Origin: Bacteroidota bacterium
GTDB lineage: Bacteria > Bacteroidota > Bacteroidia > Sphingobacteriales > Sphingobacteriaceae
Assembly: GCA_013288465.1 (NCBI GenBank)
Contig: JABDBT010000007.1
Location: 1-35,779, forward strand
Length of the DNA: 35,779 bases
Direction of reading: 5' to 3'
Position 1 is the first letter of the stretch. The number at the start of each line of letters is the position of its first letter. This document shows positions 30,144-35,779 of this stretch, piece after piece. The position numbers and the translations under genes were made by a program. The notes under the pieces were generated by a model, which did no database searches, was not told the origin of the DNA, and saw only the letters and a program-made list of their open reading frames with translations.

Positions 30144-30842
30144 ATGAAACTACAGGGCGGTTACCTGGCCGATTTTGTCGCATTATTATTCCCCGAACTT
30201 TGCTCGGCTTGTGGGGAATCGCTTGTGGCAACTGAAAACCTAATCTGTACAGATTGCCGCTATACCTTACCCTATACCAATTTTCATTTACAGCCCGATA
30301 ATATTGTTGCCCAGCAGTTTTGGGGCAAAATTAACCTTGAAAGTGCCTACTCCCTTTACTATTTTGCCAAAGGCGGTAAAGTGCAAAGCCTGATGCACCA
30401 TTTTAAATATAAAGGAATGTACCGCATAGGTAATTTGCTTGGGAAAATAGCCGGCGAACAATTAAACAAAAGCGATTTATTTAATACCGTTGATTTTATT
30501 ATACCCGTGCCTTTACATAAAAGCAGGTTAAAAGAGCGCGGCTACAACCAAAGCGCCTGCTTTGCCGAAGGGTTGGCAAAAAAATTAAATGCTGATGTTG
30601 AGGAGAATAACCTGGTGCGGATAAAAGCCACCGAAACACAAACGCATAGATCGCGCTTTGACCGGTTTGAAAACATGCAGGAAGTTTTTTCAGTTAAAAA
30701 TCCCGAAAAATTAGTTAACAAACATGTGTTACTGGTGGATGATATTGTAACCACCGGCTCAACATTAGAAGCCTGCGGCCTGCAATTACTTCAAATACCG
30801 GGGCTAAAATTAAGTATCGCCACTATTGCGTATGCGGAGTAA
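30144..30842 (+). CDS. comF: ComF family protein (phosphoribosyltransferase-type)
   Basis: This 232-residue protein has the usual ComF length. It has an N-terminal zinc site Cys20-x2-Cys23 and Cys35-x2-Cys38 (LCSACGES, ICTDCR), the conserved PVPLHKSRLKERGYNQS block (121-137), and the PRPP-binding loop VLLVDDIVTTGST at 195-207. ComF proteins take part in DNA uptake during competence, probably helping pull single-stranded DNA inward; in many bacteria the exact role is untested. It follows the SCO gene by 36 bases on the same strand but is functionally unrelated. A run of ten 8-base repeats starts 2 bases after its stop codon. Confidence 0.93.
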   Translation: MKLQGGYLADFVALLFPELCSACGESLVATENLICTDCRYTLPYTNFHLQPDNIVAQQFWGKINLESAYSLYYFAKGGKVQSLMHHFKYKGMYRIGNLLGKIAGEQLNKSDLFNTVDFIIPVPLHKSRLKERGYNQSACFAEGLAKKLNADVEENNLVRIKATETQTHRSRFDRFENMQEVFSVKNPEKLVNKHVLLVDDIVTTGSTLEACGLQLLQIPGLKLSIATIAYAE

Positions 30843-30843
30843 T

Positions 30844-30925
30844 TTAGTTGATTAGTTGATTAGTTGATTAGTTGATTAGTTGATTAGTTGATTAGTTGAT
30901 TAGTTGATTAGTTGATTAGTTGATT
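30844..30925. repeat. Tandem 8-bp microsatellite, about 10.25 copies
   Basis: Ten perfect copies of TTAGTTGA (30844-30923) plus TT follow the comF stop almost at once, in the gap between convergent comF and the glycine-rich protein gene. Copy number is likely to vary by slippage. No gene reads through it as drawn. Confidence 0.95.
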
Positions 30926-33075: not shown

Positions 33076-33344
33076 GGCGGTAAGTATTAAATTCAGATGG
33101 CGGCAATTTACCTAAAAAAGGGTTGTTTTGCCAAATTAATATGGTTTTTGTACGAATAATGCTGATGGAATTCCGAGGTAAAATTAATTATATGGTGGTT
33201 ATGTTTTGTGGTCAATATGTAAATTAATTTTCGTTTCCAGGCGTGGTTTAATGGTGAATAAATGACGGTTGGGAATGAAAACTATTTTTTCGCTCCATAA
33301 ACAATTGCCTGTTTATATCGATATTTATAAAAAAAGTAGAAGAC

Positions 33345-33548
33345 ATGAACTTTTTAAAAATCAAAACCAGCTGGTCAAACGCCGAATTTATTGTATTAAA
33401 ACTTTGTATCGCTTCCGCGTATATTTTGGTAGGCGCTTATTTCCATTCATTCTTTCGTCATTACTATGTTCCTGTATTAGGGGTGTTCGGCATTACGTGT
33501 GTTTGGGCCGTTTACTTGTGGGTTAGTAAAATGAAAAGTGCTAAATAA
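33345..33548 (+). CDS. Small two-span membrane protein, unknown function
   Basis: This 67-residue protein has two hydrophobic helices, about 16-34 (IVLKLCIASAYILVGAYF) and 42-60 (VPVLGVFGITCVWAVYLWV), joined by a short HSFFRHYY loop and ending in a basic KMKSAK tail. A purine-rich stretch (AAAAAAAGTAGAAG) precedes the ATG. The composition and clean two-helix layout favour a real gene over chance. I do not recognise the family. It lies alone in a 650-base interval between divergently read ilvE and the higBA promoter, with no sign of an operon. Confidence 0.65.
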   Translation: MNFLKIKTSWSNAEFIVLKLCIASAYILVGAYFHSFFRHYYVPVLGVFGITCVWAVYLWVSKMKSAK

Positions 33549-33681
33549 TATGCTATCATGGTACTATTATTTTTATGCTTGCAAGAGCCCCTCAATAACG
33601 GAACCATGTCATGTTGGTCAAATCTGTTGAGTACCCCGGAGGATGTGAAATCCCAATAACTGCCACCATTAAATTTCATAT

Positions 33682-33699
33682 TTTGAAACTTATTTCAAA
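33682..33699. promoter_or_regulatory. Candidate HigA operator (palindrome)
   Basis: TTTGAAA (33682-33688) and TTTCAAA (33693-33699) form a perfect inverted repeat with a 4-base spacer. It lies 15 bases upstream of the -7 box and 27 bases before the higB ATG, where an antitoxin repressor would be expected to bind. Confidence 0.45.
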
Positions 33700-33714
33700 T
33701 AATAAAATTATTGG

Positions 33715-33722
33715 TAACTTTG
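33715..33722 (+). promoter_or_regulatory. -7 box of the higBA operon
   Basis: TAACTTTG matches TAnnTTTG exactly and ends 4 bases before the higB ATG, the same spacing as for rlmN, so the message is probably leaderless or nearly so. The TTTG at 33682-33685 is 29 bases upstream, longer than the normal -33 spacing. Confidence 0.6.
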
Positions 33723-33726
33723 AATA

Positions 33727-34020
33727 ATGGTAATTATTATCAAAAAAACACTTTCAGCATTTGCGGAGAAACATCCGGAGGCTGCTTTGCCATTAAATAA
33801 TTGGTATAGTATAGCAAAAACAGCTAACTGGAGCAAATTGGCCGATGTAAAGAACATGTTTAATAATGTGGACTATGTTGGAAATAACAGGTATGTTTTC
33901 AATATCAAAGGAAATGATTTTAGACTTGTTACGATGATATTTTTTGATACACGCACCATATTTATACGCTTTATTGGTACACATAAGGAGTATGATAAAA
34001 TAGATTGTTCAACTATTTAA
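33727..34020 (+). CDS. higB: HigB-family mRNA interferase toxin
   Basis: This 97-residue protein matches the HigB toxin family (RelE-like fold): LNNWYSIAKTANWSKLADVK, then VFNIKGNDFRLVTMIFFDTR and FIRFIGTHKEYDKID. These toxins cut mRNA on the ribosome. Toxin-before-antitoxin order with an 11-base gap to higA is normal for HigBA. The final 63 bases of the gene and the next 10 bases of spacer are repeated perfectly, inverted, at the right end of the window (35707-35779), so a second higB tail exists there. Expression is probably repressed by HigA through the palindrome upstream. Confidence 0.93.
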   Translation: MVIIIKKTLSAFAEKHPEAALPLNNWYSIAKTANWSKLADVKNMFNNVDYVGNNRYVFNIKGNDFRLVTMIFFDTRTIFIRFIGTHKEYDKIDCSTI

Positions 34021-34030
34021 AATAAAAAAC
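33958..34030 (+). repeat. Left arm of 73-bp perfect inverted repeat
   Basis: The 3' end of higB (last 20 codons and stop) and the first 10 bases of the higB-higA spacer are identical to the reverse complement of 35707-35779. Identity stops at 34031, one base before the higA start codon. Confidence 0.97.
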
Positions 34031-34031
34031 G

Positions 34032-34418
34032 ATGATCGATAAAATAAGAAACGAAGAACAATACAACCAGGTAATGACGTTGATAGAAACCTTTATAAAA
34101 AAAGCGACTGATGGTGGTGGTTTTCATTCTTTATCAAAAATAGAAGCCGATGAACTAAGCCATATTAGTTTATTGGCCGAGCAGTATGAGGATAATGTAT
34201 TGAAATTAATGCCCTTACCGGTTACTATTAATGCCGTTGTACAACATAAAATAAATGAGTTAAATATAACCCAGGCCAAACTTGCCGAAATATTAGGTTT
34301 GGGGACATCCAAATTATCTCAAATATTAAACGGTAAACGTGAGCCTGACGTTACGTTTTTAAAGGCTATACATAGTAAATTAGGTATTAGCGGCGACTTT
34401 TTGTTAGAAAATGTTTAA
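34032..34418 (+). CDS. higA: HigA-family antitoxin, XRE-type repressor
   Basis: This 128-residue protein has an N-terminal region (about 1-60) that should wrap the toxin and a C-terminal helix-turn-helix of the XRE/Cro type at about 78-122 (ITQAKLAEILGLGTSKLSQI, then LNGKREPDVTFLKAIHSKLG). It neutralises HigB and, with it, represses the operon. The start lies 11 bases after the higB stop, so translation is likely coupled. A hairpin with a T run begins right after its stop. Confidence 0.93.
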   Translation: MIDKIRNEEQYNQVMTLIETFIKKATDGGGFHSLSKIEADELSHISLLAEQYEDNVLKLMPLPVTINAVVQHKINELNITQAKLAEILGLGTSKLSQILNGKREPDVTFLKAIHSKLGISGDFLLENV

Positions 34419-34452
34419 CGGGCTAAAACAACAAAGCCCGATCTGCTTTTTT
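34419..34452 (+). terminator. Terminator after higA
   Basis: CGGGCT (34419-34424) pairs with AGCCCG (34435-34440) and is followed by ATCTGC and six T. It starts at the base after the higA stop codon. Confidence 0.6.
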
Positions 34453-34537
34453 CTATCGCAGGGATATCCGCCGAACGACCTGCAAGGAAGAGAAAATAAA
34501 AATTCGAAATTGAACATCCGAAATCCGATATCGCGCG

Positions 34538-35218
34538 CTATTTTACCAAATTAATATTTTGATAATACAGGTTGCCAACGGGTAAAACCGAGCCATTTAC
34601 CAGTAACTGGTGCCTTTCAATTTTATCAATTTTATTGAGCGCCGCTATAAACGACCGGTGGATACGGATAAATTGCCCTGCGGGAAGCATGGCCTCTACC
34701 TCGGTTATAGTCATGCGCGAGAGGATGGTTTTATCTTTCAATACAAAATTAACGTAGTTGCCCGTAGCCTCCAGGTAACAGATATCTTCAAAGTTTACCC
34801 TCAGTTGCTCATAGCCTGTTTTTAGGAACAGGTAAGTTTTTTTATCGACCGAGCTGTTTCGTAAATTGTAAATTTCATTGGCTTTGTTACAGGCTTTAAT
34901 AAAACGGGTTAGGGCAAATGGTTTTAGCAGGTAGTCGATAGCATCCAGTTCAAAGCTTTCAACTGCATGTTCGGAGTAGGCGGTGGTAAAAATAACCATC
35001 GGCTTTTTGTTGAGGCAGTTTAGCAGGTCGATACCCGAAATGTCGGGCATTTTAATATCCAGGAACAATAGGTCAACCGGTTCATGCTGTAAATATTCCA
35101 TGGCTTTAAAAGCGTCGGTAAACTCTGCTTTTAAATTCAAGAACGGCACCTTAGCCGCATGCGAGCGCACCACTTCTAAAGCTAAAGGTTCGTCATCAAT
35201 GGCAATGGCAGATAACAT
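34538..35218 (-). CDS. LytTR family response regulator
   Basis: This 226-residue two-domain regulator has a receiver at about 1-120 with the acidic pocket (AIDDEP, Asp8-Asp9), the phosphorylation site Asp54 in DLLFLDIKMPD, Thr in VIFTTAYSEHA and Lys in DYLLKPF. A LytTR DNA-binding domain follows at about 128-226 (YLFLKTGYEQLRVNFEDICY, then IRIHRSFIAALNKIDKIE, a typical LytTR core). Partners are usually a LytS/YehU-type histidine kinase encoded next door; none is present here. The upstream gene, 16 bases away on the same strand, is instead a thioredoxin-like ORF. Targets are unknown. It converges on higA. Confidence 0.94.
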   Translation of the reverse strand: MLSAIAIDDEPLALEVVRSHAAKVPFLNLKAEFTDAFKAMEYLQHEPVDLLFLDIKMPDISGIDLLNCLNKKPMVIFTTAYSEHAVESFELDAIDYLLKPFALTRFIKACNKANEIYNLRNSSVDKKTYLFLKTGYEQLRVNFEDICYLEATGNYVNFVLKDKTILSRMTITEVEAMLPAGQFIRIHRSFIAALNKIDKIERHQLLVNGSVLPVGNLYYQNINLVK

Positions 35219-35234
35219 AGGATAAATATAGGGT

Positions 35235-35705
35235 TTATTTGTTCAGTGCAGCTTCTATCTGGCTGTATAATAATTCGCCGTCACTGGGCCGTTTTGCATT
35301 TTTATCTGATAAATTACCATGTGTATCAAAAATAACATAAGTAGGAAATAACCTTGGAACATTACGGGTATTTAACAAGTCGATCCAGATATTTTCCATC
35401 TCTGTCTGGCTCGCACGCACATGATAGCCGGTAAGGTTATGTATGTTCACAAATTCTTTCCACTTTGCAGTGTCTTTATTATAGTCCATTTCCAGGTATA
35501 GGAAAACAACATTTTTATCTTTAAACTTTGTTTTTAATTGAGCGGAATGTTCAACAATTTCCTGTACACAAGGCCCGCACCAGGTTCCCCATATATCAAC
35601 ATAAACTGCTTTACCTTTATAGGGCGCTATCAAATCTTTTAAGGATGTGATCTTTGTATCGGCAGGGATAAAAACAATGTCTTTGTTCTTCTCATTTTCG
35701 GCCAT
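35235..35705 (-). CDS. Thioredoxin-like (TlpA/AhpC-type) domain protein, possibly 5'-truncated
   Basis: This 156-residue thioredoxin-fold domain has the active site WCGPC at 42-46 (VDIWGTWCGPCVQEI) and the cis-Pro121 in LFPTYVIFD. TlpA-type proteins in Bacteroidota are usually exported and often carry a longer N-terminal domain. Here there is no signal peptide, only about 30 residues before the domain, and the sequence reads like the C-terminal part of a larger protein. Its ATG lies at the junction with the inverted repeat: a TAA sits in frame 6 bases upstream, within the repeat spacer. It therefore occupies the place higA holds after the other higB copy. A redox role is clear from the motif; whether the ORF is complete is doubtful. 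Confidence 0.8.
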   Translation of the reverse strand: MAENEKNKDIVFIPADTKITSLKDLIAPYKGKAVYVDIWGTWCGPCVQEIVEHSAQLKTKFKDKNVVFLYLEMDYNKDTAKWKEFVNIHNLTGYHVRASQTEMENIWIDLLNTRNVPRLFPTYVIFDTHGNLSDKNAKRPSDGELLYSQIEAALNK

Positions 35706-35706
35706 G

Positions 35707-35779
35707 GTTTTTTATTTTAAATAGTTGAACAATCTATTTTATCATACTCCTTATGTGTACCAATAAAGCGTATAAATAT
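35707..35779 (-). repeat. Right arm of 73-bp inverted repeat, cut by the window end
   Basis: This is the reverse complement of 33958-34030 with no mismatch over 73 bases. The arm reaches the last base of the window, so its true length is unknown. The arms enclose 1676 bases (34031-35706). Confidence 0.97.
35717..35779 (-). CDS. 3' end of a second higB copy, partial
   Basis: Reading in from the right edge on the minus strand, 20 codons and a stop encode IFIRFIGTHKEYDKIDCSTI, identical to the end of the HigB at 33727-34020. The rest of the gene lies outside the window. The thioredoxin-like ORF starts 11 bases after this stop, the same gap that separates the other higB from higA. Confidence 0.8.
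   Translation of the reverse strand: MFIRFIGTHKEYDKIDCSTI

Follow-up and report, generated by a model that had tools for sequence, protein, structure and literature searches.

The right end of the analysed window, a stretch of 35,779 bases, is probably a chimeric join or a misassembled end. The last 73 bases (35707-35779, minus strand) carry an inverted copy of the tail of a higB toxin gene, joined in front of a truncated tlpA-type gene, and the gene structure suggests that this copy does not naturally belong beside the thioredoxin domain encoded there. Arguments for such a join are that the gene is cut short, that the repeat lies at the end of the window and that its two copies match perfectly, are inverted and lie close together. 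Bases 35707-35779 should be flagged, and neither a second higB nor an invertible segment should be claimed from them.

The bases 33958-34030 (left arm, plus strand) and the reverse complement of 35707-35779 (right arm) are identical in 73 of 73 positions, which confirms the perfect inverted repeat described in an earlier reading of the letters alone. That sequence-only reading was also correct on the content of an arm, i.e., higB codons 78-97 (the last 20 codons), the stop codon and 10 bases of the spacer between higB and higA, and on the 1676 bases enclosed by the arms and the gene positions. The coding end of higB including its stop makes up 63 of the 73 bases. By simple counting with equal base frequencies, a match of 73 bases has a chance expectation of about 7e-36. 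Beyond these bases the repeat breaks, the next base being G versus C, and the outer edge of the right arm coincides with the final base of the window, 35779. A second inverted repeat with an exact core of 25 bases was not present in the window. A looser scan (seed 14, minimum 30) yielded three more inverted repeats of 30-34 nt with 74-77 % complementarity and extended the 73-base repeat to 100 nt at 89 %. An unusual local hairpin was also considered as the cause of the end and rejected, since the predicted DNA folding of the right end of the window was ordinary (z 0.10).

The left copy lies in a regular higBA type II toxin-antitoxin operon. The toxin gene comes first: higB (33727-34020, plus strand) codes for a HigB-type (RelE-like) toxin of 97 aa with a HigB_toxin domain (Pfam PF09907, E 1.6e-32) and is followed by higA (34032-34418, plus strand) for an HTH antitoxin of 128 aa (Pfam HTH_3). 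At E<=1e-25, HigB was detected in 11 of 61 genomes of a relative's genus, with 13 matches in all, and each of the 12 loci fetched from these had a HigA homologue downstream of HigB. In the four closest relatives (L052-L055) HigB was 75-80 % identical and stood beside a HigA partner with 80-84 % identity, separated by a spacer of 8-11 bases, compared with 11 in the window. The DNA alignment of higBA with these four ran unbroken from about 33670 to about 34416 and spanned the whole left arm. Because higB was followed by higA in 12 of 12 loci and the higBA alignment was continuous in four relatives, the left copy is, by these comparisons, the native one. No difference from a higBA operon was observed; the left copy is unremarkable.

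The reading frame adjoining the right arm (35235-35705, minus strand) codes for a thioredoxin domain of 156 aa and was called from an ATG at 35705. Judged by its homologues, it is the C-terminal third of a TlpA-type protein of about 500 aa. Among the best 120 of 213 matches, the eight closest relatives had 493-508 aa and were 59-63 % identical to the thioredoxin domain. Their match to the window began at window residue 1 (five relatives) or 2 (three relatives), and the domain extended in them from residue 336-350 to the C-terminus, i.e., over the last 158 or so residues, preceded by 335-349 others. Since the homology reaches the very start of the thioredoxin frame and these relatives have 335-349 more residues upstream, the right arm is probably not a natural context. 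By the same comparison the arm lies where tlpA should have its first two thirds; the coding region of tlpA is interrupted by the higB tail and lacks its first 335-349 codons or so. The ATG at 35705 most likely encodes a methionine inside the protein. Both arms had earlier been described as ending one base before a start codon; the positions hold (higA at 34032, the thioredoxin frame at 35705), but the second of these ATGs does not appear to be a natural start. Read upstream in frame, the arm presents a TAA stop 9 bases before this ATG. It would be wrong to annotate the 156-aa frame as a complete gene. For suspicious inverted repeats in general, a cheap check is to ask if relatives have a full-length version of any gene that the repeat cuts.

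The long relatives were obtained after a change in the protein search. A length filter had left out long proteins from the first search, and a longer length range was then used. Besides the window's own copy, the length-filtered search had yielded partners only up to 44 % identical; some of these were short (167-212 aa), so that the domain can occur in short reading frames. Short stand-alone thioredoxin-domain proteins were present in more distant relatives, e.g., P0004-P0008 with 167-178 aa and 38-43 % identity. Comparison of the thioredoxin protein with a genome contig collection revealed 17 loci, the best segments being 26-46 % identical, and among plasmid records 3 of 72,556 had matches, all weak, to LytTR or TlpA. 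A full-length TlpA with 100 % identity was absent from the best 120 of 213 matches of the composite protein search, and P0137 had no match in 149 genomes of the genus at a strict E<=1e-110, a negative that carries no weight by itself. Another relative, P0136 (713 aa), carries two tandem C-terminal thioredoxin domains with 47 % and 54 % identity to the domain in the window.

Gene order in relatives was consistent with a full-length tlpA at this site. The thioredoxin frame is followed by the gene of a LytTR response regulator of 226 aa (34538-35218, minus strand; Pfam Response_reg and LytTR), which is itself in place as far as the sequence comparisons indicate. Among the matches listed, at least 9 of 61 relative genomes had a TlpA frame of about 500 aa directly before a LytTR gene, full length there, unlike in the window; seven of these were viewed as loci, and five of the frames measured 495-509 aa. 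In L040, the sole tlpA-LytTR locus read gene by gene, a histidine kinase gene precedes tlpA. A LytTR protein at least 72 % identical was encoded in 8 of 18 fetched stretches. In L034, L039 and L050, LytTR was followed about 150 bases on by an aminotransferase gene and further on by a homologue of the 292-aa ORF of the window, while the aminotransferase gene was absent from the fetched stretch of L035-L038 and L049. The window keeps the order of LytTR, aminotransferase and 292-aa ORF, with a gap of 1462 bases that holds higBA and a 67-aa ORF. Relative to L034, L039 and L050, these genes form an insertion between the LytTR and aminotransferase genes (33116-34540). The 67-aa ORF (33345-33548) has hydrophobic stretches, and exact direct repeats of 9 bases around the higBA insertion were not found between 33076-33730 and 34419-34540. 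A histidine-kinase gene (Pfam-tested in L034 only) precedes LytTR in L034 and L050, with no tlpA between. No relative examined showed the complete tlpA-LytTR pair of the window, in which LytTR belongs to the 77-87 % class; the native order can therefore be reconstructed with less than full confidence.

A chimeric join may have formed as follows. After copying higB to about 34030, a 3' end would have been displaced and would have paired again, through a few common bases such as AAAAAAC, with the displaced strand of tlpA close by. Extension from about 35706 would then have copied back and produced a fold-back molecule. The assembler may have followed this molecule off the end where coverage of the true tlpA path was low; alternatively, it may have stopped where the path met higB k-mers already used. 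The apparent junction of tlpA and the higB tail lies at 35706..35707 (no strand assigned), a point uncertain by any bases common to both. At the cut, nine relatives have Glu at position -3 in eight cases and Lys at -2 in five. Native codons GAA AAA ACC, as predicted from these residues, would have AAAAAAC in common with the higB-higA spacer.

The best-described source of molecules of this shape is strand-displacement amplification (MDA); a library chimera or an assembler misjoin would look alike. Among the MDA chimeras reported by Lasken and Stockwell (2007, PMC1855051), 406 of 475 were inverted, 337 of these joined segments less than 10 kb apart, and 93.5 % of the inverted joins within this distance had complementarity at the junction. 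Nanopore ligation libraries are described to yield inverted chimeric reads likewise (PMC13141652). The window resembles the MDA chimeras of that report (PMC1855051) in an inverted second segment, in junction points separated by 1676 bases, well below 10 kb, and in the few common bases that may exist at the join, where MDA-type chimeras share 2-21 nt; in addition, a gene structure is broken, tlpA being cut 335-349 residues in by the measure of the eight closest relatives found. The reported chimeras differ in that they occurred in single reads, whereas the present join stands in assembled sequence.

The earlier suggestion that the repeat, if not real, marks a chimeric or k-mer-overlap contig end is supported, though not proven, by the cut tlpA, the end position, the identity and the geometry. 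According to the COBRA paper (PMC10914622), contigs broken at repeats usually end in an overlap of the assembler's k. Like such de Bruijn contig-end overlaps, the present repeat reaches the sequence end and copies another place exactly. Yet neither 73 nor 74 is a k setting or maxK noted from that paper, which does not favour a simple overlap, and the other copy is internal. The window end, moreover, need not be a contig end. The protein database records the identical 156-aa thioredoxin frame on a single contig (37,469 bases) and the identical HigB on two contigs, the longest of 37,469 bases. The parent contig may thus exceed the window by 1,690 bases, on one side or the other, and in that case 73 bases would be the minimum length of the right arm. 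The first ORF of the window was absent from the best 120 of 213 protein-database matches.

Among the alternatives, a real and recent inverted duplication fared best, but it is unlikely. Such an event would have truncated tlpA and set the tail of higB, possibly together with further higB sequence, in inverted orientation before the last 156 codons of tlpA. The perfect identity of 73/73 bases fits a recent event, the database contigs carry the same 156-aa frame (one contig) and HigB (two contigs), and the short stand-alone thioredoxin-domain proteins show that the domain exists by itself. The same geometry can also arise in cells, a template switch or a tandem inversion duplication being possible sources. 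Nevertheless, the repeat stops exactly at the window end and the gene is full length in the eight closest relatives found. The junction also had no independent source: an exact 55-base junction pattern had no match in IMG/VR, which covers viral contigs only, and the thioredoxin frame was recorded on the one contig. After such a duplication, tlpA would survive as a pseudogene or code for a small thioredoxin fragment without the N-terminal part. An extended version, a real duplication with the tail of higB or an entire second higB before the truncated tlpA, in which the toxin-antitoxin operon and LytTR stand in a fold-back repeat able to rearrange in the population, is very improbable.

Less probable than the simple duplication is a second copy of higB, or of higBA, that lies inverted inside tlpA, the contig halting 73 bases into it where the assembler was unable to resolve the repeat. 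This is how repeat-broken contigs usually end, with an overlap of k (COBRA, PMC10914622), but neither 73 nor 74 figures among the k values noted from that paper, and the left copy was assembled straight through where such a repeat should break too. HigB occurs patchily (at E<=1e-25 in 11 of the 61 relatives) and is recorded on two contigs, and higBA occupies a place between the LytTR gene and the aminotransferase gene that spans about 150 bases in three colinear relatives; these points would suit an additional copy. This copy, however, would have to meet tlpA no more than one base from the start of higA. An inverted duplication and a second higB inside tlpA, taken jointly, are still rather doubtful, and the chimeric or misassembled end is preferred over both.

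An invertible switch, in which the arms recombine and flip the segment of higA, LytTR and the thioredoxin frame, is barely credible, although the segment is flanked by perfect inverted repeats. The inversion had been proposed to exchange the gene following each higB. This does not agree with the gene structure: the arm lies inside tlpA, and a flip of 34031-35706 never rejoins the N-terminal two thirds, so that tlpA is intact in neither orientation and the 5' end of the thioredoxin frame adjoins an arm either way. No domain of a site-specific recombinase, transposase or integrase was detected in 32 window proteins (Pfam, E<=0.001; a set without the 67-aa ORF or the small and antisense frames), although a recombinase, usually but not obligatorily near an inverton, could lie elsewhere in the genome. 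The Holliday-junction protein RuvA was present among the window proteins (Pfam). Known invertible sites, as described in PMC5903667, typically carry repeats of 10-20 nt and often lie between genes or in 5' untranslated regions. The window has in common with the site-specific DNA inversion of that source a segment between inverted repeats; it differs in a far longer repeat of 73 bases, 63 of them coding sequence of higB and not a known recombinase site, in the lack of a recombinase among the proteins scanned and in a gene that is cut both ways.

Two further observations concern other parts of the window. A perfect tandem array of TTAGTTGA with 10.2 copies (30844-30925) directly follows a gene with a phosphoribosyltransferase domain (end at 30842). 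At 1332-2837, two adjacent genes code for DUF2807 (head GIN domain) proteins of 235 and 233 aa, a pair that perhaps originated from a tandem duplication.
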